Shown here: one piece after another, positions 1,938-46,056 of the stretch
Layout of the letters: every line of letters begins with the position of its first letter
Numbering within the stretch: the first letter of the stretch is position 1
Source: Lachnospiraceae bacterium G41
GTDB lineage: Bacteria > Bacillota > Clostridia > Lachnospirales > Lachnospiraceae
Direction: 5' to 3'
Length of the DNA stretch: 64,000 nt
Assembly (NCBI GenBank): GCA_900100245.1
Contig: FNEU01000001.1
Location: 310,001-374,000, forward strand
The notes under the pieces: generated by a model
Databases searched by the model: none
What the model saw: only the letters and a program-made list of their open reading frames with translations
What the model was told of the DNA's origin: nothing
Program-made: the position numbers and the translations under genes

Positions 1938-2183
1938 ATGGAAACACGTGCTGCAGTTATTGCAATTATCGTGGAAAACGATGATTCCGCCAACGAGATT
2001 AATTCTCTCTTACATGAATATCGCGGTTCAATTATCGGGCGAATGGGAATTCCTTACCGCGAAAAAGGAATTTGTATCATAAGTGTTGCAATTGATGCCC
2101 CTCAGGATACAATCAGTTCCCTTGCCGGCAAAATAGGCAGAATAAACGGCGTTACAGCTAAAACCGTTTACTCACCCAAATAA
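1938..2183 (+). CDS. TM1266-type iron-only hydrogenase system putative regulator
   Basis: An 81-residue protein with a GTGAGGAAATC ribosome binding site. The sequence runs from AAVIAIIVENDD through YRGSIIGRMGIPYREKGICI to SLAGKIGRINGVTAKTVYS. This is the pattern of the TM1266 family (TIGR03959), which has a small ACT-like fold and is usually found beside [FeFe]-hydrogenase maturation genes such as hydEFG. Here it instead heads a nitrogenase-like and hyp gene cluster. A role in sensing a metal or metabolite for that cluster is inference; there is no DNA-binding helix-turn-helix visible. The leader after it carries an attenuator-like structure. Confidence 0.75.
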   Translation: METRAAVIAIIVENDDSANEINSLLHEYRGSIIGRMGIPYREKGICIISVAIDAPQDTISSLAGKIGRINGVTAKTVYSPK

Positions 2184-2192
2184 TAAAATTTG

Positions 2193-2317
2193 CTTTCTGA
2201 CATCAAAACCTCAATCGAGCTTGAGATGAAAGTCGTGCATCATAAAAGAATTACTATGTCTTTATGCACTCTTTCTATGTCGGAAAGAGTGCTTTTTAGT
2301 TTTAGAAAGAGAGAATT
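2193..2317 (+). promoter_or_regulatory. Structured leader RNA with attenuator layout before the nitrogenase-like genes
   Basis: Three helices can be drawn by hand. Stem A pairs 2193-2196, 2201-2203 and 2210-2214 with 2221-2232, with two bulges only on its 5' side. Stem B pairs GTGCAT (2235-2240) and AAAG (2245-2248) with CTTT (2260-2263) and ATGCAC (2264-2269). A terminator stem starts at 2266, so GCAC is shared by stem B and the terminator and only one can form. That is the layout of a riboswitch or protein-controlled attenuator. No known riboswitch class is recognised. Confidence 0.5.
2266..2300 (+). terminator. Intrinsic terminator/attenuator 18 bases before the first NifH-like gene
   Basis: GCACTCTTTC (2266-2275) and GAAAGAGTGC (2283-2292) form a perfect 10-bp stem with a 7-base loop, followed by TTTTTAGTTTT. 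It may simply end the regulator transcript, but it lies within the leader of the next gene and no separate promoter is seen after it, so conditional read-through is likely. Confidence 0.75.
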
Positions 2318-3070
2318 ATGATAAAATTTGCTATTTACGGAAAAGGCGGAATAGGTAAATCCACATTGTCATCAAATTTAAGTGCGGCCTTTGTAAAAAG
2401 AGGCTTAAAAGTAATGCAAATCGGCTGCGATCCGAAAGCAGACTCCACTTCTCTTTTATGTCCGAAAGAAAAGGTAACTTCGGTATTGGATCTTGTCAGA
2501 AGCAACGAATCTTTTACGCTCGAAGACATGGTAAAAGAATCGGAATCCGGAGTTTACTGCGTCGAAGCAGGCGGTCCCGTGCCGGGTCTCGGCTGTGCGG
2601 GACGAGGCATAATAAACGCACTTGAATCACTCGAAAACAAAGGTGCTTACGAATATTACAAACCCGATGTAGTCATTTATGATGTTCTCGGAGATGTGGT
2701 ATGCGGCGGTTTTACCATGCCCATGAGAAAAGGCTTCGCCGAAAAGGTTTATATAGTTACGTCAGGCGAGAAAATGTCCGTTTATGCGGCCGCCAATATC
2801 GCAATGGCCATTGAGAATTTTAAGAAGAGAGATTACGCAAAACTCGGTGGCATTATTCTAAACTGCAGAGGCGTTGAAAACGAGCTAGAAAATGTCGAAA
2901 CGCTCGTAAAAGATTTTGATACAAATATTTCCGCAATCATTCCCAGAAGCCCTCTTTTTGCAGAGGCTGAAAAACAGGGAAAAACAATCGTGGATCTTTT
3001 CCCTGATAGCGATGTTTGCGAAGCACTGCTTGGACTCGCTGACAGAATTATAAAGGATTTTGAATGTTAA
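2318..3070 (+). CDS. NifH-like ATP-dependent reductase, set 1
   Basis: A 250-residue homologue of nitrogenase iron protein (NifH/BchL/CfbC family), a homodimeric MgATP-driven electron donor. It has the Walker A loop GKGGIGKST (residues 8-16), the GCDPKADST motif (36-44), and both [4Fe-4S] ligand cysteines: C93 in LGCAGRG and C129 in DVVCGGF. It is shorter than NifH (about 270-295) and lacks the long C-terminal tail. Its gene overlaps the next one by 7 bases, so it almost certainly serves the D-like protein encoded there. It is clearly a paralogue of the second reductase at 5773. Confidence 0.93.
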
Positions 3071-4410
3071 AACAGATTTCTCTAAATGAAAACAGAATAC
3101 CCGAAGGTGTCAGGATATCCGAAATCGATTTTGACAATCCTTTTTTCGACGGACTGCATTACAACGCTCCCGCAAGAGGTGTGTGGAATATAGTTCATAC
3201 AGGTATGCTCATTCCCGAAGCGCATCAGATATATGTCTGTGCACAGGGGTGTCTGCGCGGTGTTATTCTAACCGCTGCGGAAATGAACCGTATGGAAAAT
3301 ATGTCCTGGGTTGCACTTCGCGAGCAGGATATGTGGAACGGCGAAATGGAATCGAGAGTCATCGAAGGATGTTCTCATATCGTCGATGAAATGAAAGAAC
3401 ATCCCAAATGCATACTCGTTTATTTAAGCTGCATGCATTTGTTTGAAGGCTGCGATTTTAAAGTAATCGCCAAGGAACTCGAGACACGCTACCCCGATAT
3501 TGACTGGGTTGACTGCTATATGACTCCTACCATGAGAAAAACATTCGAGCCCATGGTGATGATGAAAAAGAGTCTCTACTCTCCGATTAAAAAACTTGAA
3601 GTTGATGAAAAAAAGATTGGCCTCATAGGATGTGACCGCGCGACTGATAAATCCTGTGAGATTTATTCTCTTTTAGAAAAAGCTGATATGAAAATGTGGG
3701 ATATCACAGAATGCAAAACATATGAGGATTATCTCTCATTAGGTGCCGCATCTCTCCTTATCTCATATCTTCCGGTCGTAGGTTACGCTGCAAAAGATTT
3801 AACTAACAAGCTTGGTGTCAAACATCTGGCAATCGATTTAAGCTATGATTCAAATGAAATTGAGGCAAATCTTAAAGTACTGGCTGATGCCCTGAACGTA
3901 GATAACGAATATCTTAATGCTTTAATTGAAACTAATAAAACGAAAGCAAAAGAAGCTCTGCTTAAAACAAAAGAGCTCATAAAAGATACACCCATCGCAA
4001 TAGATGCAACTGCAACGCCTCGCCCTGTCGGCCTGGCTTTGCTCCTAAAAAAATCCGGATTTAACGTAAGAAGAATCTATACAGATGCATTTTCGCCAAA
4101 AGAAAGAATCGCTTTTGATGAATTATGTAAACTTGATGGCAGTATAGAAATCTTCCCTTTAATGGATCCGACAATGCTTTATGCATCAAACGAAGAAGAT
4201 ATCTCAAGCAGCGAATACTTAAGTATAGGACAGAATTGTGCGTACTTCTGTCAGACGAAGCATTTCGTCAATATAGTCGAAGGCGGAGGAATGTACGGAT
4301 TCGACGGTATTGTAAACTTATGTAAACTAATTGAGGACGCATACAATAATCCAAAGGATTTAAAACTCACTATCTCTCATAAGGGAATCGCCTGTGAGAG
4401 CTGTTTATAA
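3064..4410 (+). CDS. Nitrogenase component 1-like D subunit, set 1
   Basis: A 448-residue protein of the nitrogenase component-1 superfamily. The N-terminal part carries [19 protein letters not shown], like the P-cluster QGC region of NifK, with C59 and C63, and [11 protein letters not shown] (C123, C130), like the TCM region. The first P-cluster cysteine position is not a cysteine (GVWN). Near the C-terminus IGQNCAY gives C392, also conserved in the set-2 partner, and GMYGFDG matches the NifD GPYHGFDG stretch but without the cofactor histidine. The protein ends in CESCL, a terminal CxxC absent from the set-2 protein. Substrate unknown. Confidence 0.85.
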
Positions 4411-4412
4411 AA

Positions 4413-4441
4413 TGACACACAACCCCCGTCCCCCAGTGTCA
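4413..4441. repeat. REP-like inverted repeat
   Basis: TGACAC (4413-4418) and GTGTCA (4436-4441) flank a C-rich core in the gap between the set-1 D and K genes. The make-up resembles the GTCCC/TGTCA palindromes of REP elements mobilised by RAYT transposases in many bacteria. It may form a small hairpin in the mRNA and modulate the ratio of the two subunits. Confidence 0.45.
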
Positions 4442-4455
4442 AAAGGTAAAAAAGT

Positions 4456-5721
4456 ATGAATCAAACCGCACGAATAATTTCAATCTACGCTGCCGATACA
4501 TCGGGTGTCTGCTCCGCTTTATATGAGTACGGAGGGATGACCGTTATTCATGATGCGTCGGGCTGCAATTCGACATATACGACTCACGACGAGCCCAGAT
4601 GGTACGACAAGAAAAGCATGATGTTTATTTCCGGTCTTACCGAAAAGGATGCTGTAATGGGCAACGACGACAGATTTATGGAAGATCTGATTGTTGCTGC
4701 AAACGAACTTAAACCTGCATTCATAGCGCTCTGCGCTTCTCCTCTTCCCGCTATGATCGGAACAGATCTAGAAGCCATTGCTTATGCGGTAGAAACCGAA
4801 ACCGGTATTCCTTCATTTGCAGTAAAAACAAACGGTATGCAGTCGTATATTACAGGAGCCGGAAACGCATTTCTTGAGCTTGCAAAGAAATTTGCCAACT
4901 CAGATGAAAATGAGTTATGTCAACCAACTTCCAACCCTTATGTATTTAATGCACAAGCTCTGAAACTGATGTTTGGTACCAAGCTGCCTACCGCAGTTTC
5001 GGCCAATACGGATAATGATTTCCCGAAGCCTCAGGAAGATACTTTTAAGAAGATAAAAGTCAATCTTTTAGGAGTTACACCTCTTGATTATCCGACAAAA
5101 GAAAGCATTGACAGTCTGTTAAAATTCATAAAAGAATCAGGTTTTGAATTAAATGCGTGTGTTGGAGTAGATACTAATTTAAGTGAGTTTAAAAATATCA
5201 AAAAAGCCGAAGTTAATCTTCTTTTATCATCATGCGGAAAGCCTCTGGCAGATTACCTTTTCAGTGAATATAAAATCCCCTTCGTAAAAGGTGTTCCTTA
5301 CGGATTAGGATTTTCAGACAAGATAAAAGATGCACTTATCAAGGCGTGTGAATCAGGCGAAAACATCGATGCAACCGAAGGTTTCAGAGAAGCAGGCAGT
5401 GTTGCAATTTTAGGAGAAAGCATTATGAGTGCTTCTCTTGCTAGTGCGCTTCTTTTAGACAAAGGAATCAAAGCCAACGTTCTTGAAACCGTAGGCGACG
5501 GCGATTTTGAAATCTTAAAATCATTCGATATTTCATGTGATGATGAAAAGATTTTGGAAAACGAATTAAAGAAATATGACGTGATTATCGGCGATCCTTT
5601 GTTTAAGCCGATATGCGCGGATAAAAAATTTATAGAACTTCCTCATGAAGCATTTTCCGGAAGGTGTTTTACCAAAAACGCGCCGAATCTTATCTACACG
5701 TCAATCGATAAATTTATTTAA
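4456..5721 (+). CDS. Nitrogenase component 1-like K subunit, set 1
   Basis: A 421-residue component-1 superfamily protein, probable partner of the D-like subunit just upstream. All three positions expected for a bridging iron-sulfur cluster are cysteines: C19 (DTSGVCSALYEYGG), C37 (HDASGC) and C93 (IALCASPLPAMIGTDL). A DEPRW motif at 45-49 occurs at exactly the same positions in the set-2 K protein, so it is probably specific to this family. The C-terminus (PHEAFSGRCF) has no recognisable FeMo-cofactor ligand. The ribosome binding site is AAAAGG. It would act as a D/K heterodimer or heterotetramer reduced by the NifH-like protein. Confidence 0.83.
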   Translation: MNQTARIISIYAADTSGVCSALYEYGGMTVIHDASGCNSTYTTHDEPRWYDKKSMMFISGLTEKDAVMGNDDRFMEDLIVAANELKPAFIALCASPLPAMIGTDLEAIAYAVETETGIPSFAVKTNGMQSYITGAGNAFLELAKKFANSDENELCQPTSNPYVFNAQALKLMFGTKLPTAVSANTDNDFPKPQEDTFKKIKVNLLGVTPLDYPTKESIDSLLKFIKESGFELNACVGVDTNLSEFKNIKKAEVNLLLSSCGKPLADYLFSEYKIPFVKGVPYGLGFSDKIKDALIKACESGENIDATEGFREAGSVAILGESIMSASLASALLLDKGIKANVLETVGDGDFEILKSFDISCDDEKILENELKKYDVIIGDPLFKPICADKKFIELPHEAFSGRCFTKNAPNLIYTSIDKFI

Positions 5722-5760
5722 TTTAGGAGCCGGACACGTTTCGCGAGTCAGGCACCTAAA
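5722..5760. repeat. REP-like GGAGCC...GGCACC imperfect palindrome
   Basis: TTTAGGAGCCGGACAC at the left end and GAGTCAGGCACCTAAA at the right end are imperfect inverted repeats (12 of 16 positions pair). The same core recurs at 12640, 29143, 31775 and 45678. It lies between the two nitrogenase-like sets and its right end runs into the ribosome binding site of the second NifH-like gene. Confidence 0.55.
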
Positions 5761-5772
5761 AGGAGTACACAC

Positions 5773-6537
5773 ATGATTAAAATAGCTATCTACGGTAAAG
5801 GCGGCATAGGCAAATCAACCGTAACAAGTAACTTAAGCGCCGCGCTTGCGTACCTTGGAAAAAAAGTCATACAGATTGGCTGCGATCCGAAGGCAGATTC
5901 GACCGCAAATCTTTTATCGGGAAATCCCGTATTTCCCGTTATGAATTACATGCGTGATTATGACAAAGAGCCCGAGTCACTCGATGAGATTTCAAAAGTC
6001 GGTTACGGCGGAGTTTTATGCATAGAAACAGGCGGACCCACTCCGGGACTCGGATGTGCGGGACGAGGAATCATTACCACATTTTCACTGCTTGAAGAAT
6101 TAAAACTTTTCGAAACCTTCAAGCCCGACGCAGTTTTATACGACGTACTTGGCGACGTTGTCTGCGGTGGTTTTGCAGCACCCATCAGAGAAGGTCTTGC
6201 AAGCAAAATCATTATTGTAACATCAGGCGAAAAAATGGCTTTATATGCAGCCAACAACATAAACAGCGCCGTTGAAAATTTCAAGGAGCGAAGCTACGCA
6301 AATGTGCGCGGTATCGTTTTAAACAGAAGAAATGTTTTAAACGAGGAAGAAAAGGTTCGCGAATTTGCAAGCACTCACAATCTTGAGATTATCGCTGATA
6401 TTCCAAGAAGCGATGACATCATTCGTTTCGAAGATGAAGGTAAAACCGTTATCGAAGGTGACCCCACTCTTTCGGTAAGTCAGAGCTTCCTTGATTTGGC
6501 AAAACTTCTCATAAAAGAAGACGAAGAAGGATTATAA
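5773..6537 (+). CDS. NifH-like ATP-dependent reductase, set 2
   Basis: A 254-residue second iron-protein homologue. Walker [10 protein letters not shown] is at residues 8-16 and the [11 protein letters not shown] region follows. Both cluster ligands are present in GLGCAGRG and DVVCGGF. It differs from the set-1 reductase mainly between residues 46 and 80 and in the C-terminal quarter, regions that contact component 1 in nitrogenases, so each reductase may be matched to its own D/K pair. AAGGAG lies ten bases before the ATG, and the set-2 D gene follows after 24 bases. Keeping two reductases in one operon is unusual, since one NifH normally serves several component-1 proteins. Confidence 0.92.
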
Positions 6538-6561
6538 ATCTTTTAGGATTTTAGGACATAA

Positions 6562-7842
6562 ATGAACAAAGCATTTTTTAAAACAACAAAAGAAATAGTT
6601 GAACTTGGATACGATAATCTCCCTGTGGAATTTGTATCCAATAAGCACTTAATATACTCATCCCCCGCCACCTTATCCTTCAACTCTCCCGGAGCCAAAG
6701 GATACGGTGTAAAGCGTGCAGGCCTCGCAGTTCCGGAGTCCGTGATGCTGCTTGTATCACCCTCATGCTGCGGAAGAAACACATCACTTTTTAAGAGTTC
6801 TCCGGAATATAAAAACCGTTTCTTTTTTCAGCTTTTGGACGATACCGACATCGTAACCGGAAGGCATTTGATGAAGATAAACGATGCATGCAAAGAGATA
6901 CTCGATTCACTCGATAAAAGACCCTCTGCAATCATGATCTGTATCACATGCGTTGACGCACTCTTAGGTACGGATATGGAGCGAATCTGCAGAAAAGTAA
7001 CAGAGACTCATTCGATTCCCTGCGTAGCATGCTATATGTATGCGTTAACAAGAGAAAAACGTCTCTCTCCGATGGCTTATGTCAGAACGAGTGTCTACTC
7101 TCTTTTGGAAAAATCCAAAAGAAAAAACAAAGACATGAACATAATGGGATTTTTCTCTCCCCTAAATGATAAAAGCGAGCTTTATCCTCTCCTAAAAGAA
7201 GCAGGTATAGAGAACATCAGAGAACTTGCAAGATGCGAAACTTTTGATGAATACAAAGAGCTTTCAAAAGCCAATTTTAACCTTGTTTTAAATCCCGAAT
7301 CAAGACATGCGGCACAGGATATGCAAAAGCGACTCGGCATTCCTTTTATCGAAATGCTTCGTCTTTATCAGCCGGATAAAATACACAATCAGTATACGTT
7401 ACTTGCAAATGCGCTCGGTGTAAAATTCGATGATTCGGAATATTTTGAAAACACCAAAAAGAAAATAGCGGAATTTAAGGAAAAACATGGTGAATTAAGA
7501 TTTGCCGTCGGCGAAATCCTAAACGGTGACGCCATAGAGATAGCATTAATGCTCGTAAAAGAAGGCTTTAAAGTCGAATGCGTATTCGCAACCATCGGTG
7601 AGCTTAATTACAGATTTTTAAAGACTTTGGCAGAGTTAAGTCCCGAGACCAAAGTGTATTCCAATCTCTCGCCGACCATGCTGATGTATGAGAATGACGA
7701 TATCGACTGCTACATAGGTTCTGACTGTGCTTATTACTTTTCGGATAAGCCCGGAATTGAATGGTGTGATGATACGGAGCCCTTCGGATATCAGGCTGTC
7801 ACAGACCTTTTTGATGCACTTGATAATGAACTTTCAAAATAA
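6562..7842 (+). CDS. Nitrogenase component 1-like D subunit, set 2
   Basis: A 426-residue, highly divergent component-1 protein. SPSCCGRN (C69, C70) stands at the QGC position and ICITCVDALLGTDMERI (C127, C130) at the TCM.EVIGDD position. It shares with the set-1 D protein a CYM motif around 157, a PTML motif in the C-terminal third and IGSDCAY (C389), aligned with C392 of set 1. The stretch matching the NifD cofactor-histidine region reads EPFGYQAV, with no histidine. There is no C-terminal CxxC. AGGA precedes the start. The role may be catalytic or, like NifE, a scaffold; the sequence does not decide. Confidence 0.78.
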   Translation: MNKAFFKTTKEIVELGYDNLPVEFVSNKHLIYSSPATLSFNSPGAKGYGVKRAGLAVPESVMLLVSPSCCGRNTSLFKSSPEYKNRFFFQLLDDTDIVTGRHLMKINDACKEILDSLDKRPSAIMICITCVDALLGTDMERICRKVTETHSIPCVACYMYALTREKRLSPMAYVRTSVYSLLEKSKRKNKDMNIMGFFSPLNDKSELYPLLKEAGIENIRELARCETFDEYKELSKANFNLVLNPESRHAAQDMQKRLGIPFIEMLRLYQPDKIHNQYTLLANALGVKFDDSEYFENTKKKIAEFKEKHGELRFAVGEILNGDAIEIALMLVKEGFKVECVFATIGELNYRFLKTLAELSPETKVYSNLSPTMLMYENDDIDCYIGSDCAYYFSDKPGIEWCDDTEPFGYQAVTDLFDALDNELSK

Positions 7843-7851
7843 TTGTTTTGG

Positions 7852-7878
7852 TTTACATAATTTATTGGTTTACATAAA
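7852..7878 (+). repeat. Two TTTACATAA boxes between set-2 D and K genes
   Basis: GTTTACATAA occurs at 7851-7860 and again at 7868-7877, 17 bases apart. The same box is the unit of the 13-bp-period array before hypE and occurs in the radA-uridine kinase gap (51060-51140). Function unknown. Confidence 0.5.
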
Positions 7879-7899
7879 ATAATTTAGCAGGTATTTTAA

Positions 7900-8928
7900 A
7901 TGAAAAAATTCCTAAAATACATGTCGCCCTTTGCTCCCGATCAGTCCGGTGCGTGCGGTGTCTTTTATGAGCTGGGCGGATTAATCATAATATGTGATGC
8001 GGGCGGATGCGCAGGAAATATCTGCGGCTTCGACGAGCCCAGATGGTTTGATAAAAAAAGTGCCGTATTCAGCGCCGGTCTTCGTGACATGGATGCCATC
8101 ATGGGACGTGACGATAAGCTTATTCAAAAACTATCCCTCGCCCACGAACAGTTAGGCGGAAAATTTGCACTGATTGTTTCAACTCCCGTTCCCGCAATTA
8201 TCGCAACAGACTTACGTTCCCTTGAAAGAATGGGCGAGAAAAAAATAAACGTACCGTGCATAGCCATAGATTCAACAGGTACCAACTATTACGATAAAGG
8301 CGAAGAAAAAGCCTGGTTTCGTCTTTTTGAAACCTTTGCAAAAGAAACCTTTGAAAAGGTCGAAGGTAAAGTCGGAGTAATCGGAGCAACACCCATTGAA
8401 ACAGGCTATAAGGATGCTGAAAAATTAAGCGCTTATCTTACAGGAAATACTGTTATTTATTCCATGGGAACAACTTTGGAAGATGTAATAAAAGCGAGCG
8501 AATGCGAGAAAAATATCGTCGTATCTCTCGCAGGATTAAAAGCAGCAAAATACCTGAATGATAAGTTTGGTATTCCTTACGAAATCGCTTATCCTTTTAT
8601 TCCTGAAAACATAATTGATGAAGCGAAGAAATACGCAGGTAAAAACATACTTATCATTCATTCGCAGTTTGCCGCAAACGAACTTAGAAAAGCAATCGGA
8701 GGCGACAATATCAAATGCGCCACATGGTTTATGCAGGATAAAGAATTTGCACTTGAAGGCGATATTCAGTTAAGCGGTGAAGACGATCTGACGGAACTTC
8801 TTGAAAAAGAAAGTTTTGATTTGATAATTGCAGACTCCGATGCTCTGCCCTTAATCAAATCCACAGGTTATGAAGGCGAGTTTATCGATTATCCGGAATT
8901 TGCTGTTTCAGGTCGCCTGTTAGGTTGA
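7900..8928 (+). CDS. Short nitrogenase component 1-like K subunit, set 2
   Basis: A 342-residue protein, about 80 shorter than its set-1 counterpart and far shorter than NifK. It keeps C19 (DQSGAC), C37 (DAGGC) and DEPRW at 45-49, but the third cluster position is valine (V93 in ALIVSTPVPA), so a set-1 type cluster would need another ligand; C32 and C42 are nearby extra cysteines. It ends with EFAVSGRLLG, matching AFSGRCF of set 1. A frameshift is not evident; the shortening comes from the middle. The 57-base gap before it contains two copies of TTTACATAA. Confidence 0.78.
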   Translation: MKKFLKYMSPFAPDQSGACGVFYELGGLIIICDAGGCAGNICGFDEPRWFDKKSAVFSAGLRDMDAIMGRDDKLIQKLSLAHEQLGGKFALIVSTPVPAIIATDLRSLERMGEKKINVPCIAIDSTGTNYYDKGEEKAWFRLFETFAKETFEKVEGKVGVIGATPIETGYKDAEKLSAYLTGNTVIYSMGTTLEDVIKASECEKNIVVSLAGLKAAKYLNDKFGIPYEIAYPFIPENIIDEAKKYAGKNILIIHSQFAANELRKAIGGDNIKCATWFMQDKEFALEGDIQLSGEDDLTELLEKESFDLIIADSDALPLIKSTGYEGEFIDYPEFAVSGRLLG

Positions 8929-8973
8929 CATAACATCAGAATTGCAACTGCGGTTCTATTTGGAGAATAAATT

Positions 8974-11298
8974 TTGAATACTTGTATCATCAGAGTATAC
9001 GGCATCGTTCAGGGCGTGGGTTTTCGCCCCTTTGTAAGCCGGACCTGTCTTTCAAACAACATAAAAGGCACAGTCGCCAACAAAGGCTCGTATGTCGAAA
9101 TACATGCTCAGGGCGAAAATATCGATGCACTTTTTGATGCGTTAAACCACCGCCCTCCCAAGCGTTCCGTCATACTAGAAATCATTAAAAAATATGAAGA
9201 CGAAGAGCCATATGATTCATTCACAATCATAGAGAGCGAAAAAGATCCCGGAGAGATTTTTGTTTCACCCGATATTGCCATCTGCGACGAATGCAAAAAA
9301 GAACTCTACACACCCACAGATAAAAGGTATTTGCATCCTTTTATCAACTGTACAAACTGCGGTCCGAGACTTACCATTCTCGACTCAATGCCATACGACA
9401 GAGTTCGTACCAGCATGGGTGAATTCGAAATGTGCGATTACTGCCATAACGAATACATTTCACCCGCATCCAGGCGCTATGATGCACAGCCTGTATGCTG
9501 CAACGAATGCGGCCCCGAATATTATCTTTTTGATAAAAGTCTTCTCTCTGAAAACATTTCGGAGACTGAAGAATCTTTTATGAAATATACGAATATTAAA
9601 GGTCGTGATGCAATAACCGCAGCAAGAAAAGCAATAATAGATGGTAAAATCGTAGCGGTTAAAGGTATCGGCGGATTTCATCTTGCTTGCGATGCAACCA
9701 ACGAAGAAGCTGTAAAAAGGTTACGTGTTCTTAAAACAAGACCTGCTAAACCTTTTGCGGTAATGATGCGTTCCTTCGATACGGTTTTAAAATACTGTGA
9801 AGTAAAAAAAGAACAGGAAGAACTTTTATGCGGTCATCAGAAACCCATCGTTCTTCTAAAGAAAAAAGAAGAATGCAAAGAACTTGCAGAATCACTCGCG
9901 CCCGGAAATCCCACACTAGGTGTAATGCTTCCGTATGCGCCAATACAGTTACTTTTATTTGATTATAACGACGAGCTTTCAATGCCTGATGCACTGGTAA
10001 TGACCTCGGGAAACGCATCGGGTGCACCGATTTGCAGAACAGATTATGATGCATTAAATGAAATATCGTCATTTGCTGATTATATTCTTTCAAACAATCG
10101 TAGAATTAGATTAAGATGTGATGATACCGTTACAGACTTTTTCGAAGGAAGCCCTTACATGATCAGAAGATCGCGTGGGTTTGCTCCTCTTCCCGTGATG
10201 ATTTCGTCAAAAGTAAAAGGTCACGTGCTGGCAATCGGCGGCGAACTTAAAAACACATTCTGCATCGCAAAGGATTCAATGCTTTATCCTTCCGCATACA
10301 TCGGAGATATGGAAGATCTTCGTTCAGTCGAGGCGCTTAAAGCATCGATTACCAGAATGGAAACCCTGCTTGAAGCATCACCTACTCTAGCCGTATGTGA
10401 CCTTCATCCTTTGTATCACACCACAGAGGTTGCAGAAACGCTTAATTTGCCCCTTATTAAGGTCCAGCATCACTATGCGCATATTTTATCATGCATGGCA
10501 GAAAACAATTACCTGGACGACGTTATCGGTGTTTCCTTTGACGGTACGGGTTATGGTACTGACGGTACTATCTGGGGTGGCGAAATTCTTAAGTGTAGCG
10601 TCCGTGATTTTGAAAGAATCACAAGCGTTTCACCTTTTATTCAGTCCGGTGGTGATATATCCGCAAAAGAAGGCTGGCGAATTGCAGCAAGCATTCTTCG
10701 CGACACTTCCGAAAACGGCAAAGATATCGCACATAAATTAAACCTTTGCAGTGAAGGCGAATATAATCTTCTCGCGCAAATGGCAGATAAAAACATAAAC
10801 AGCGTAAAATCAACCTCTGCAGGAAGAATCTTTGATGCGGTAAGCGCAATCCTGGGAATCAAACGCTCTTCCACTTTCGAAGGCGAGGCTTCCACATCAT
10901 TAATGTTTGCTGCACAGAAGTATGAAAAAGAACATTCTGACATTTCTTTTATGAGCGATATCGAACTCATAAAAGACAAACAATTAAATACAAACGAACT
11001 TGTTTTAAATATTGCCGAAAAATATTTAAACAGCGAAGGCAAAGAAAAGTTGGCTTACTATTTCCATGATGCGCTCTCTTCGATGATAGTTAAGCAGTGC
11101 GTTCTGTCTTCAAATGAAACTGGCATAAAAACCGTCGCACTAAGCGGTGGTGTTTATCAGAATATTTTGTTGCTTAAATTAACAAAAGAAAAACTTAAAA
11201 ATGCTAACCTTAATGTCATCCATCACAGCATTATCCCGCCCAATGACGGCGGAATTGCTTTGGGACAGGCATTATATGGACTTTTCTATTTAAACTAA
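8974..11298 (+). CDS. hypF: Carbamoyltransferase HypF
   Basis: HypF uses carbamoyl phosphate and ATP to load a carbamoyl group on the C-terminal cysteine of HypE, the precursor of the cyanide ligands of the Fe(CN)2CO unit. The 774 residues are complete: acylphosphatase domain (VQGVGFRPFV, 12-21), zinc-finger pairs C104/C107, C126/C129, C154/C157 and C176/C179 with family spacing, a YrdC-like domain (KGIGGFHLACDA), and a Kae1-like C-terminal domain (HHYAHILSC, FDGTGYGTDG, ALSGGVYQN). Translation starts at TTG, since GGAG lies nine bases before it and no ATG fits. It follows the set-2 K gene by 45 bases. Confidence 0.96.
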   Translation: MNTCIIRVYGIVQGVGFRPFVSRTCLSNNIKGTVANKGSYVEIHAQGENIDALFDALNHRPPKRSVILEIIKKYEDEEPYDSFTIIESEKDPGEIFVSPDIAICDECKKELYTPTDKRYLHPFINCTNCGPRLTILDSMPYDRVRTSMGEFEMCDYCHNEYISPASRRYDAQPVCCNECGPEYYLFDKSLLSENISETEESFMKYTNIKGRDAITAARKAIIDGKIVAVKGIGGFHLACDATNEEAVKRLRVLKTRPAKPFAVMMRSFDTVLKYCEVKKEQEELLCGHQKPIVLLKKKEECKELAESLAPGNPTLGVMLPYAPIQLLLFDYNDELSMPDALVMTSGNASGAPICRTDYDALNEISSFADYILSNNRRIRLRCDDTVTDFFEGSPYMIRRSRGFAPLPVMISSKVKGHVLAIGGELKNTFCIAKDSMLYPSAYIGDMEDLRSVEALKASITRMETLLEASPTLAVCDLHPLYHTTEVAETLNLPLIKVQHHYAHILSCMAENNYLDDVIGVSFDGTGYGTDGTIWGGEILKCSVRDFERITSVSPFIQSGGDISAKEGWRIAASILRDTSENGKDIAHKLNLCSEGEYNLLAQMADKNINSVKSTSAGRIFDAVSAILGIKRSSTFEGEASTSLMFAAQKYEKEHSDISFMSDIELIKDKQLNTNELVLNIAEKYLNSEGKEKLAYYFHDALSSMIVKQCVLSSNETGIKTVALSGGVYQNILLLKLTKEKLKNANLNVIHHSIIPPNDGGIALGQALYGLFYLN

Positions 11299-11317
11299 AT
11301 TAACGGAGGATAAAAAA

Positions 11318-11530
11318 ATGTGTGTAGGTTTACCTGCAAGAGTAGTCAGTGTTAATGACGGTACCGCCATCATCGATGCAAACGGTGCCAAAAGAGATGT
11401 TCGCGCAGAGCTTCTCGACGACCTTGAACCCGGCGATTACGTAATGGTTCACGCCGGCGTTGCAATCGCAAAAATCAGTTCTGACGACGAAGAAGAAGGA
11501 AGCGAAGTTCTCGGACTTCTTGCTATTTAA
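11318..11530 (+). CDS. hypC: Hydrogenase maturation chaperone HypC
   Basis: HypC is a small chaperone that with HypD carries the Fe(CN)2CO unit to the hydrogenase large subunit. The 70-residue length is typical, and it begins MCVGLPARV, so removal of methionine would expose the essential N-terminal cysteine. The C-terminal acidic stretch SSDDEEEG is unremarkable. The ribosome binding site CGGAGG is strong, 19 bases after hypF. Normally HypC also contacts the apo-large subunit; no such subunit is encoded here, so its acceptor may be a nitrogenase-like protein or an unlinked hydrogenase. Confidence 0.93.
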   Translation: MCVGLPARVVSVNDGTAIIDANGAKRDVRAELLDDLEPGDYVMVHAGVAIAKISSDDEEEGSEVLGLLAI

Positions 11531-11590
11531 GACTCTAATCAAATAACTGATTAACGCGGCACGAAAAAAAATATCTAAAAAGGAATACTT

Positions 11591-12634
11591 ATGAACGAAA
11601 TAATTGAAAAAGCCCGCGAAATAATCACTTCATACGACGGACCCAAAGTCCGCATAATGGAGGTTTGCGGAACTCATACTCATGAAATATTCAGACTCGG
11701 AATACGCTCTCTTTTACCCGAGAACATCGACCTTATCTCCGGCCCGGGTTGTCCCGTTTGTGTAACTCAGGTTGGCTTTATCGATGAGGCTTTGTATCTG
11801 GCACTTGAGAAGAACTGTCTGATAACCACATTCGGCGATCTCATAAAAGTACCGGGCACCGAAATGAATTTAGCCAAAGCACGAGCAAAAGGCGCAAATA
11901 TCAGACCTGTGTACTCTCCGGATGATGCAGTAAATCTTGCAATAGAAAATCCTGATAAAGATGTAGTTTTCTTATCAGTCGGTTTCGAGACTACCACACC
12001 ATCCTCATGCTTGGCAGTAAAGAGAGCAAAAGAACTGGGACTTAATAACTTTTCTATTCTTGTTGCGAACAAATCAATGCCTAACGCTTATCAAAAATTA
12101 AAAGGAAGCGCTGATGCATTTTTATATCCCGGTCACGTAAATGCCATTACAGGAAACGGAGTTTGTAAACAATTAAAAGAAGAAGGTGTATCCGGAGTTG
12201 TTGCTGGATTTACCGCAACTGAACTTATGACTGCACTTGCAGTAACTATCGAAATGTTAAAAAAAGGCGAACCCTTCTTCGTAAACTGTTATCCCAGAGT
12301 CGTAAAAGACGAAGGAAGTGTATTTGCTCAAAAGCTTATGGATGAAGTAATGGAGCTTTGCGATACCGAATGGCGCGGCCTTGGAATGATTGAGAAATCC
12401 GGATTAAAATTAAGAAGCGAATATTCCGATTTCGATTCAAGGATTAAATACAACATGCCTCACATTGAAGGAAAACCCAATCCAGGCTGCAGATGCGGCG
12501 AAGTATTGCAGGGACACTGCAAGCCTTCCGACTGTCCTTTATTCGGAAAAGTCTGCACTCCTCTTCACGCTGTAGGTGCATGCATGGTATCCGACGAAGG
12601 AGCCTGCTCTGCTTTTTACCAGTATGCTCAGTAA
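11591..12634 (+). CDS. hypD: Hydrogenase maturation protein HypD
   Basis: HypD is the [4Fe-4S] scaffold on which Fe(CN)2CO is assembled together with HypC. The 347-residue protein has the conserved EVCGTHTHE motif (C26), GPGCPVC (C54, C57) and the C-terminal cluster-binding region: C300, C302, C310, C315, C322, C331 and C339 in a compact block ending 8 residues before the terminus. All hallmark cysteines appear intact, so a working protein is expected. AAGGAA precedes the ATG, 60 bases after hypC. A long AT-rich gap of 177 bases follows before hypE. Confidence 0.96.
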   Translation: MNEIIEKAREIITSYDGPKVRIMEVCGTHTHEIFRLGIRSLLPENIDLISGPGCPVCVTQVGFIDEALYLALEKNCLITTFGDLIKVPGTEMNLAKARAKGANIRPVYSPDDAVNLAIENPDKDVVFLSVGFETTTPSSCLAVKRAKELGLNNFSILVANKSMPNAYQKLKGSADAFLYPGHVNAITGNGVCKQLKEEGVSGVVAGFTATELMTALAVTIEMLKKGEPFFVNCYPRVVKDEGSVFAQKLMDEVMELCDTEWRGLGMIEKSGLKLRSEYSDFDSRIKYNMPHIEGKPNPGCRCGEVLQGHCKPSDCPLFGKVCTPLHAVGACMVSDEGACSAFYQYAQ

Positions 12635-12639
12635 AACAT

Positions 12640-12661
12640 GTGCCCACAGGTGCCTGGCTCC
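12640..12661. repeat. REP-like GTGCC...GGTGCCTGGCTCC element
   Basis: The element directly follows the hypD stop codon. Its core GGTGCCTGGCTCC is shared with 45678-45705 and, in the opposite orientation, with 5726, 29143 and 31775. Confidence 0.5.
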
Positions 12662-12688
12662 TATCTTTTAGAAGCAATTAGTTATTGA

Positions 12689-12775
12689 TTTACATAATTA
12701 GTTGACATATATAGTTTACATATTTGCTTAACATAATGGGTTAACATATTTATTTTACATAATTTGTTAACATAA
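12689..12775 (+). repeat. Seven TTNACATA boxes with exact 13-bp spacing upstream of hypE
   Basis: Boxes begin at 12689, 12702, 12715, 12728, 12741, 12754 and 12767: TTTACATAAT, TTGACATAT, TTTACATAT, TTAACATAAT, TTAACATAT, TTTACATAAT, TTAACATAA. The nine-base core is conserved while the four spacer bases vary. The array ends 36 bases before hypE. Iteron-like protein binding or a degenerating minisatellite are both possible. Confidence 0.75.
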
Positions 12776-12811
12776 CGAATAATTATTTATTTTATGAAAG
12801 GTGGCAATCTC

Positions 12812-13816
12812 ATGGAAAACGTAATTACCCTTGCCCACGGTTCCGGAAGTATTCAGACAAACGAACTCATTAACGGAATCTTTAAATCAAATTTTGACAA
12901 TCCCGACTTAACCGCAGATGATGCTGCAGTGCTCTCTCTTGATGAGGGTAAAATTGCAATGTCTACCGACGGCTTTATAGTTTCACCCTATGAATTCCCC
13001 GGCGGAAACATAGGAAAGCTTGCTATCTGCGGAACTGTAAACGATATCGCATGTATGGGTGCTAAACCTAAGTACCTTACATGTTCTTATATCATCGAAG
13101 AGGGATTCCCTGTAGAAGAGCTTGAAAAGATTGCCAAATCCATGGGTGAAACCGCAAGAAAAGCAGGTGTGGAAATTGTCGCAGGCGATACCAAAGTTGC
13201 TGGTAAAGGTCAGGTTGATAAAATCTTCATCACAACTACAGGTGTTGGCAACATAGTCGAAGGTGTAAATACCTCGGGTGCATTTGCAAAACCCGGAGAT
13301 AAAATAATCGTTACGGGTGATATCGGAAGACACGGCTGTACTATTCTTCTTGCAAGAAACGAGTTCAATATCGATGCTGATATTACCAGTGACTGTGCAC
13401 CTTTGTGGAGCAATATCGAAGCCGTCCTAAAAGAAACAAAAGACATTCATGTTATAAGAGATGCCACACGTGGCGGCGTCGGAACAGTCCTTTATGAAAT
13501 CGCTCATCAAAGCAATGTTGGTATTTCTCTCGAAAGCGAAAAGATTCCAGTAGATCCCGGCGTTCGCGGTGTATGCGCAATGCTCGGTCTTGAACCTTTA
13601 TATCTCGCTTGTGAAGGACGACTCGTATTCTTCGTTCCCGCATCGGAAGCAGACAAGGTACTGAGCGCATTACAGTCTTGCGAAAACTCTGAAAAAGCTG
13701 CAATCATCGGCGAAGTAACCGAAGATAATGTCGGCAAAGTAATCTTAAATACAGCAGTCGGAGCAAAAACACTTCTCTCCCGTCCAAGCGGCGAACTTCT
13801 TCCCAGAATCTGTTAA
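12812..13816 (+). CDS. hypE: Hydrogenase maturation dehydratase HypE
   Basis: HypE dehydrates the thiocarboxamide on its C-terminal cysteine to a thiocyanate, the donor of CN to the HypCD iron. The start is placed at the ATG at 12812, since AAAGGTGG lies just before it, giving 334 residues; an in-frame ATG at 12794 has no site. Visible family features are LAHGSGS near the N-terminus, ADDAAVL, VAGDTKV of the PurM-like ATP site, and the essential C-terminal PRIC, so the acceptor cysteine (C334) is present. It is the last gene of the cluster, followed by a strong terminator. Confidence 0.96.
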   Translation: MENVITLAHGSGSIQTNELINGIFKSNFDNPDLTADDAAVLSLDEGKIAMSTDGFIVSPYEFPGGNIGKLAICGTVNDIACMGAKPKYLTCSYIIEEGFPVEELEKIAKSMGETARKAGVEIVAGDTKVAGKGQVDKIFITTTGVGNIVEGVNTSGAFAKPGDKIIVTGDIGRHGCTILLARNEFNIDADITSDCAPLWSNIEAVLKETKDIHVIRDATRGGVGTVLYEIAHQSNVGISLESEKIPVDPGVRGVCAMLGLEPLYLACEGRLVFFVPASEADKVLSALQSCENSEKAAIIGEVTEDNVGKVILNTAVGAKTLLSRPSGELLPRIC

Positions 13817-13871: not shown

Positions 13872-13895
13872 GAGCCCGGCAAAATCGTCGGGCTC
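13872..13895 (+). terminator. Terminator at the end of the hyp cluster
   Basis: GAGCCCG (13872-13878) pairs with CGGGCTC (13889-13895), followed by ATTTGTTCTTTT. It ends the cluster and separates it from the convergent ABC permease gene. Confidence 0.75.
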
Positions 13896-45705: not shown

Positions 45706-45723
45706 ACTATTCTTTTTATTCAA

Positions 45724-46056
45724 GCTGAGTGAAACTGTAAGCCGGGTTCTGTCTTGGACGATCATCTATCTAGAATCCGTGTCGCCACGAATTTCAAGCA
45801 ACCTACCTGAGCCAAGCCGGGCCGACTTTTTAGCTCAATTTGGTCTTGCTTCGGATGGGGTTTACACAGCCTTACCCGTTACCGGATAAGCGGTGGTCTC
45901 TTACACCGCCTTTTCACCCTTACCGCTTACGCGGCGGTTATTTTCTGTTGCACTTTCCTGAGAGTCACCTCTACCGGACGTTATCCGGCATCCTGCCCTG
46001 CGAAGCCCGGACTTTCCTCACCTCCTAATGGAGCCGCGATCGCCCGTTTCACTCAA
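45724..46056 (-). ncRNA. rnpB: RNase P RNA, bacterial type A-like
   Basis: The minus strand from about 46056 starts TGAGTGAAAC and ends GTTTCACTCA at about 45725, closing helix P1. Conserved core segments are seen: GAGGAAAGTCCGGGCT near 46010-46025, CAGGATGCCGGATAACGTCC (P8-P9 area), GCAACAGAAA, and the 3' core with AGACAGAACCCGGCTTAC. This is the catalytic RNA of RNase P, which matures tRNA 5' ends. Length is about 333 nt. The promoter and terminator are both visible, so it is an independent transcript. Fine ends are estimates. Confidence 0.95.

Follow-up and report, generated by a model that had tools for sequence, protein, structure and literature searches.

A nitrogenase-like and hyp gene cluster as a probable second route to the H-cluster of [FeFe]-hydrogenase in Lachnospiraceae bacterium G41

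In a stretch of 64,000 nucleotides (nt) of Lachnospiraceae bacterium G41, hereafter the window, two gene sets for nitrogenase-like proteins are followed by hypF, hypC, hypD and hypE. Each set encodes a NifH-like ATPase (H) and two relatives of nitrogenase component 1 (D and K). The locus raises the question of what HypCDEF and the nitrogenase-like proteins may build together. The operon is probably a second, undescribed route to the H-cluster of [FeFe]-hydrogenase, in which HypCDEF and the nitrogenase-like sets, with a presumed source of CO among them, would replace HydG and feed HydE and HydF. We give this replacement a probability of about 0.72. The reading is built on the gene content, the absence of HydG, a leader RNA that the loci share, and the linkage that relatives show to HydE, HydF and TM1266.

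According to an excerpt of PMC11736057, H-cluster assembly is understood as the work of three proteins, HydE, HydF and HydG, the last of which makes CO and CN- from tyrosine; the resulting Fe(CO)2CN unit is passed to HydE. Hyp chemistry gives Fe(CN)2CO, and the source of the CO on HypCD in anaerobes is described as unknown in an excerpt of PMC12134894. In the window, genes were called from open reading frames and curated profile models (TIGR equivalogs and Pfam). All cluster genes lie on the + strand, and coordinates are window positions:

1938..2183, + strand: TM1266-family protein, putative regulator of the [FeFe]-hydrogenase system (TIGR03959, 112.4 bits; cut-off 60.8)
2190..2245, + strand: leader RNA motif, absent from Rfam (model R1, 56.5 bits; the window is one of its 11 seeds)
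2266..2292, + strand: terminator-like hairpin and T run 3' of the leader motif, an attenuator candidate
2318..3070, + strand: H1, NifH-like ATPase (PF00142, 283 bits; under every equivalog cut-off)
3064..4410, + strand: D1, nitrogenase component 1-like (PF00148, 64 bits)
4456..5721, + strand: K1, nitrogenase component 1-like (PF00148, 103 bits)
5773..6537, + strand: H2, NifH-like ATPase (PF00142, 291 bits)
6562..7842, + strand: D2, nitrogenase component 1-like (PF00148, 105 bits)
7900..8928, + strand: K2, nitrogenase component 1-like (PF00148, 60 bits)
8974..11298, + strand: HypF carbamoyltransferase for cyanide synthesis (TIGR00143, 745 bits; cut-off 466)
11318..11530, + strand: HypC scaffold/chaperone of 70 amino acids (aa), MCVGLPARVV..., N-terminal Met-Cys
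11591..12634, + strand: HypD scaffold of the clade linked to nitrogenase-like genes (TIGR00075, 393 bits; cut-off 193; tree support 100/100)
12794..13816, + strand: HypE with C-terminal PRIC, the thiocyanate carrier (TIGR02124, 434 bits; cut-off 252)
13872..13895, + strand: terminator-like hairpin 3' of hypE

The open reading frames and curated models bear out the arrangement given in a preliminary description of this DNA, namely two H-D-K trios followed by an intact hypF-C-D-E on one strand (2318–13816). The TM1266 gene (1938–2183) and the leader RNA (2190–2245) had been overlooked there. Intergenic gaps do not exceed 60 bases from H1 to hypE, with the exception of 159 bases before hypE. HypF has its full complement of Pfam domains (acylphosphatase, zf-HYPF, YrdC and HypF_C), and the HypC of the relative G269 scores 63.5 bits with TIGR00074. 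The catalytic motifs of HypC, HypD and HypE are intact on reading by eye: HypC starts with MC, HypD contains CGTHTH and GPGCPVCV, and HypE ends in PRIC. H1 and H2 retain the Walker A motif and both cluster cysteines, which lie in GCAGRG and VVCGGF in H1.

The host genome (G000; 2.59 Mb in 22 contigs, 99.72% complete) is close to rumen Lachnospiraceae, the D2 protein of locus L158 being 97% identical. It encodes two PF02906 [FeFe]-hydrogenase-type proteins outside the window, which score 333 and 114 bits. One lies at C17:298450-299307, about 11 kb upstream of the window start, and the other at C17:304627-305325, about 5 kb upstream. The former is a HydA of 585 aa that has a small-subunit domain as well as the L2 and L3 motifs and is adjoined by a HydB-like NADH subunit. 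HydF, with its tetramer and dimer domains, is encoded on a separate contig (C14:181639-182802; TIGR03918, 561 bits). The best match to the HydG model TIGR03955 in this genome reaches only E 2.1e-25, compared with 5.5e-105 or better in the genomes counted as having HydG. The [NiFe] large subunit (PF00374) was not found in the whole genome, and a whole-genome search for HypA and HypB gave partial matches under cut-off only. D1, K1, D2 and K2 are the sole PF00148 proteins of G000, which means that no NifDK or NifEN is encoded elsewhere in it. No full NifH was found in G000 beyond H1 and H2; two extra matches over the Pfam cut-off comprise just 39 and 44 residues (29–36 bits). The preliminary description had stated that hypA, hypB, nifE and nifN are missing, and at the model cut-offs this holds for the entire genome. 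Its further statement that there is no hydrogenase is correct for the window and, as regards the [NiFe] type, genome-wide, but it does not extend to the two PF02906 proteins and HydF.

The textbook L1 motif of HydA is TSCCPxW. The L1 motif of the G41 HydA, TSCSPGW, was considered as a sign of an unusual enzyme and set aside, because the genus mate G336, which has HydG, carries the same motif.

The occurrence of HydG was compared with that of the two-set system in 392 genomes of the order. HydF was counted as present at E <=1e-50 (193 genomes) and HydG at E <=1e-100 (170 genomes, of which 164 also have HydF). The system is found in 17 of the 29 genomes with HydF and without HydG, and in none of the 164 genomes with both (Fisher p 5e-17, kinship ignored). 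By the model cut-off HydG totals 171 rather than 170 genomes; if G082 (1.8e-72) is the odd one, the counts become 17/28 and 0/165. Together with G281, which has no HydF match, the system genomes number 18 in 8 genera and 3 families, and all 18 encode a PF02906 protein.

The same exchange is seen between close relatives. G336 has HydG and HydF and lacks both HypD and a PF00148 protein; relative to the G41 proteins, identity is 85.5% for its HydA and 92.7% for its HydB. Genus g13 is likewise mixed, with HydG in G372 and the system in G173, G269 and G329. In HydG-type genomes, the run is TM1266-HydE-HydG-HydF or part thereof (11 loci: L268–L277, chosen from HydG matches, and L150), with TM1266 adjoining HydE, HydG or HydF genes in 8 of the 10 loci L268–L277 and in L150. 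The run of G336 is HydG-HydF, and its TM1266 gene lies 3.8 kb away on the opposite strand. The G41 system resembles HydEFG maturation in the HydF of its own genome, in the HydE, HydF and TM1266 of the run in relatives, and in its target hydrogenase, given how similar its HydA is to the one of G336, but in place of HydG there are two H/D/K sets and HypFCDE.

No match to the HydG model better than 6e-56 was found in the 18 system genomes. In 11 of them (the G41 genome, and families f11 and f8 except G281) the best match is only 2e-15 to 2e-25; in the other seven it is 6e-56 to 4e-49. These seven would fit an explanation in which HydG is present but divergent, or was lost to gaps of the assembly, with the cluster as a mere addition to it. 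An excerpt of PMC9431212 reports five of eight acetogenic Clostridium species without typical hydG and with divergent candidates, and ascribes the lack to divergent HydG or to stray diatomics. Matches near 1e-50 also occur in G134 and G166, which have no HydF, and such matches are therefore not specific to HydG. Given also the far weaker matches in the other 11 genomes and the 99.7% completeness of the G41 genome, we consider a hidden HydG most improbable.

Relatives of D1 are present in 33 of the 392 genomes, 20 of them of a close kind (G41 included) and 13 of a distant kind. Both sets are evidenced in 18 of the close genomes, and hyp genes adjoin a set in 17 of these 18; G293 (70% complete) is a two-set genome without HypD. 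The remaining two are G151, with D1-K1 only, at a contig start, and G388, with set 1 only. HypD is present in 17 of the 20 close genomes and adjoins the set genes in all 17. The gene order in family f11 is TM1266-HydF-HydE-H1D1K1-H2D2K2-HypFCDE, whereas genus g13 has H2D2K2-HypFCDE-TM1266-H1D1K1; in G075, HydF (557 bits) and HydE (TIGR03956, 562 bits) were confirmed by curated models. In G238, hypF lies about 12 kb from D2. No H1 precedes D1 in G135, G084, G390 and G380, which suggests that D1K1 probably uses H2 in these genomes. The run of G388 (L073:8048-15148) consists of H1-D1-K1 and TM1266-HydE-HydF without hyp genes or set 2, perhaps an intermediate state. The distant kind (L085–L097) has a single H-D-K set, 25–31% identical to D1, and no hyp, hydE or TM1266 gene was found inside the stretches read in these 13 genomes. 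Exceptions within the distant kind are a second set in G185 and a HydF-labelled BLAST match in L091; HypD and PF00374 are encoded away from the set in G166 and G352.

A wider sample was obtained by scanning named, one-per-species genomes with a D2 alignment. The best 80 of 476 D2 relatives were retained as named loci, many of them clipped by contig ends. They belong to Lachnospiraceae, Eubacterium, Ruminococcus, Lentisphaeria/Victivallales and one Synergistaceae, and the Ruminococcus members include R. bicirculans 80/3, R. albus AR67 and FC2018. In favor of the H-cluster reading, R. albus, one of these carriers, has a bifurcating hydrogenase, HydABC, whose isolation and characterization are described in PMC6288185. 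Among these 80 loci, the set genes number D2 80, K2 77, H2 76, K1 72, D1 65 and H1 63; the hyp genes HypF 69, HypC 62, HypD 62 and HypE 54; and the hyd-type genes TM1266 55, HydE 45, HydF 28 and HydG 0. A chance neighborhood was also considered, and is disfavored by the 80 named loci and the 17 whole-genome relatives.

The nitrogenase-like proteins themselves are distant members of their superfamily. H1 (300 bits) and H2 (301.5 bits) stay below the curated NifH cut-off of 394, and D and K fall far below the curated nitrogenase-superfamily cut-offs that they match, D1 scoring 25.6 bits with a cut-off of 505 for NifE. Matches to CfbC, BchL, BchX, BchN, BchB and methan_mark_13, where present, are all under cut-off. 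No Mar-named model is among the curated matches, the sole likeness to Mar being a fold similarity to 9fmg. AlphaFold models (AF2) of D1 and D2, with pLDDT values of 85.5 and 83.5, match chains of nitrogenase component 1, NifEN, DPOR and Mar in Foldseek, and sequence-profile comparison with the PDB places NifE and nitrogenase alpha chains closest, NifE being the best match of K1.

Cysteines are conserved in all four D and K proteins. In the alignments, the invariant residues are C59, C63, C123, C151 and C444 of D1 (28 sequences), C19 and C37 of K1, with C93 nearly so (27 sequences), C69, C70, C127 and C130 of D2 (24 sequences), and C32, C37 and C42 of K2 (27 sequences). C123 of D1 and C130 of D2 align to a conserved cysteine (in TC) that is found both in NifE and in a nitrogenase alpha chain, and may hold a P-cluster-like center. 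The system shares with NifEN, NifDK, CfbCD, Bch/Chl and Mar the fold, the NifH-like partner and NifE and nitrogenase alpha as best PDB profiles, but it differs from them in scores far under the curated cut-offs, in the coupling of two sets to hyp and hyd genes, and in a host genome with no other NifDK/EN-type protein. In G238, the D2 frame (L083:9624-11402) encodes 592 aa, and its C-terminal part has the K2-typical GGCTGNICGFDEPRWF stretch, a D2-K2 fusion.

Such proteins could themselves be the destination of the iron, with HypCDEF delivering an Fe(CN)2CO-like unit into a D/K protein to give a new nickel-free enzyme and the tie to HydE and HydF reflecting shared regulation or chemistry. In 69 of the 80 named loci, HypF shares a stretch with D2, which is in keeping with this, as is the retention of conserved cysteines in D and K proteins that lie far under curated cut-offs. 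This explanation leaves the complete absence of the system from the 164 genomes with HydG and HydF unaccounted for, as well as a gene run that includes HydE, HydF and TM1266, and we regard it as unlikely. The [FeFe]-hydrogenases, HydF, the HydE of relatives and the missing HydG were all invisible to the author of the preliminary description; the H-cluster is the simpler target. That description had proposed Fe-CN-CO machinery without nickel insertion, tied to the D/K families, and this part stands; its proposal that the ligated iron ends in D/K as a new enzyme is doubtful. The co-occurrence for which it suggested a search is borne out by the HypD counts of the close D1 genomes. As for the objections it foresaw, homologous sets without hyp genes are usual only in the 13 distant loci, not in the close group, and hypA, hypB and a [NiFe]-hydrogenase were not found over cut-off elsewhere in the G41 genome, although eight system genomes out of 18 do encode a PF00374 protein.

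The Hyp proteins of the cluster are similar to those of HypABCDEF maturation of [NiFe]-hydrogenase in that HypF, C, D and E are intact and follow the order F-C-D-E, but they differ in the lack of HypA and HypB over cut-off, in the lack of a [NiFe] large subunit, and in the separate clade of HypD. In a tree of 69 of the 109 HypDs collected, 37 system-linked proteins (of 77 collected) form one clade with 100/100 support, and the 32 others, labelled as NiFe solely because they do not adjoin nitrogenase-like genes, lie outside it. The HypD of the window is 59–73% identical to whole-genome system relatives and 38–47% identical to other HypDs. G238 has two HypDs, one beside D1 and within the system clade, and a second on the contig of its PF00374 protein and outside that clade. 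HydE is only partly distinctive as a marker: in a tree with 31 cluster-linked HydEs among the 52 collected, 28 form one clade and three (L080, L081 and L176) fall among HydG-type HydE.

The trees bear on the idea that the Hyp proteins are a relic of the iron supply of a lost [NiFe]-hydrogenase. The eight system genomes with a PF00374 protein would agree with such an origin. PF00374 is missing from the other 10, so there is no fixed association between the Hyp set and PF00374 proteins; the motifs are intact, HypA and HypB are missing here, and the system HypD forms its own clade, with G238 keeping a second HypD. Relic hyp genes are disfavored by these intact motifs and the separate HypD clade, and there is very little probability left for this origin.

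A conserved element, YCTGACRTCRAAACC-stem-GGYTTGAGATGAAAG, is located between TM1266 and H1. The leader model R1, built from 11 sequences, was scanned against 78 cluster loci at a threshold of E <=0.5 and gave 23 matches, of which 20 stand before HydF, HydE or H1, mostly straight after TM1266. Two matches overlap the called HydF start by about 12 bases. The outliers lie between H1 and D1 (L174 and L175) and between HydF and HydE (L183). The model has no match in 75 other sources (HydG-type, other hyp, single-set and eight separate HydF loci), and no Rfam family exceeds its threshold for this RNA. All 32 members, seeds included, are oriented with the genes. Changes on both sides occur in 11 of 15 pairs, with a covariation score of 0.444 compared with 0.195 when shuffled and at most 0.123 when slid, although fitting of the alignment to R1 flatters the score. 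On reading by eye, the 3' end of the leader (GAAAG..GTGC) could pair with the terminator stem; terminator-like sites are not enriched in the region (11 found, 12.1 expected from shuffles). The leader RNA is a candidate attenuator or riboswitch. One switch ahead of hydF, hydE or the nitrogenase-like genes provides independent evidence that these genes work jointly.

In the proposed route, cyanide would be made from carbamoyl phosphate by HypF and HypE, and HypC and HypD would hold the iron and take up the ligands. The two H/D/K sets would perform ATP-driven, low-potential steps that are otherwise covered by the chemistry of HydG; most likely they would make CO from CO2 or a C1 unit, change the ligand ratio so that Fe(CN)2CO becomes a unit of the Fe(CO)2CN type, or both. 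The diiron site would then be built and carried by HydE and HydF and loaded into HydA. Nitrogenases are able to reduce CO2 to CO and to reduce cyanide. The H-cluster contains more CO and less CN- than the Hyp product. The nitrogenase-like reductases encoded next to the hyp genes are natural candidates for the production of CO and for the adjustment or reduction of the iron unit. Set 2 accompanies the hyp genes in most loci, set 1 accompanies HydE/HydF or TM1266, and G388, which has HydG, has kept set 1 with HydE/HydF; from this pairing, our guess is that set 2 may act with HypCD and set 1 nearer to HydE and HydF. We infer every chemical step, and the division of labor between sets 1 and 2, from these gene associations. 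As a more tentative extension, for which the odds are somewhat below even, D2/K2 (or D1/K1) may be a dedicated CO-making enzyme that, with HypCDEF, builds all CO and CN- of the H-cluster, with carbamoyl phosphate and a C1 unit in place of tyrosine as the starting materials.

Several observations weigh against the replacement of HydG by this system. Twelve genomes with HydF and without HydG lie outside the system, which counts in part against a strict rule. Among them, the D1K1 of G151 lies at a contig end, G174 is an 80% complete member of the genus to which G084 and G135 belong, the single set of G156 is of the distant kind, and HydG is ambiguous in G082. Eight genomes (G017, G252, G260, G268 and G321; G008 and G053; G129) of the three genera g83, g74 and g143 have neither HypD nor PF00148 over cut-off, and HydG can thus be absent without the system. 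HypD is found in 16 of the 29 genomes with HydF and without HydG, but it is not telling by itself because 27 of the 164 genomes with HydF and HydG have it as well. HydG is also present in G388, where set 1 shares a run with HydE and HydF. In the G41 genome, HydE was not found in the stretches read, no search having been aimed at it there. The leader is not found where HydF lies apart, at the eight loci L138 and L143–L149 of this genome and seven others. The PF00374 proteins of eight system genomes are possible Hyp clients, which are absent in 10 of the 18. For the [NiFe]-hydrogenase of R. eutropha, an excerpt of PMC12134894 excludes added CO2 as the direct source of CO.

The eight genomes also speak for an explanation in which HydE and HydF suffice with stray diatomics and the loss of HydG is tolerated, the nitrogenase-like and hyp genes serving otherwise and lying nearby by chance or for regulation. 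An activation of about 1% by HydE and HydF only is cited in an excerpt of PMC9431212. An activity of 1% would ill fit hosts whose H2 outlet is [FeFe]-hydrogenase, and the linkage recurs in loci of Lachnospiraceae, Ruminococcus/Oscillospiraceae and Lentisphaeria; we judge this explanation to be highly unlikely. Two of the eight genomes, G017 and G260 (L152:8047-12298 and L156:7949-12200), have TM1266-HydE-HydF followed by a gene for a B12-binding radical SAM protein (DUF4080, 580 aa), for which a search of the other whole-genome stretches gave no relative at E 1e-20. The DUF4080 protein is perhaps another substitute for HydG in these genomes.

Elsewhere in the window, a DUF436 protein (1201–1764, - strand; PF04260, 237 bits) is encoded divergently to TM1266 and has a homologue in 4 of the 80 named loci, and a bacterial RNase P class A RNA is located at 45722–46055 (- strand, 316 bits).

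No description of the system was found among the matches listed in open-licence PubMed Central, a scope that leaves bioRxiv and most subscription journals outside; HydG does not occur in the text of PMC12578642 or PMC8924675. According to an excerpt of PMC6776011, a survey of rumen genomes assigned nitrogenase (NifH) to 23% of them in spite of negligible N2 fixation there, and part of these rumen nifH counts may be the present system. In the same excerpt, the bifurcating [FeFe]-hydrogenases of fermenting Clostridia, such as Ruminococcus, account for half of the hydrogenase transcripts in sheep rumen, and the H2 from rumen [FeFe]-hydrogenases feeds methane formation. With HypCDEF tied to two nitrogenase-like enzymes and to HydE and HydF, the source of CO and the assembly of the H-cluster are testable in one place. 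If the more tentative extension to a dedicated CO-making D/K enzyme is true, the nitrogenase superfamily would include a member with CO as its physiological product, and the H-cluster assembly used by rumen H2 producers would have arisen a second time, by convergence.

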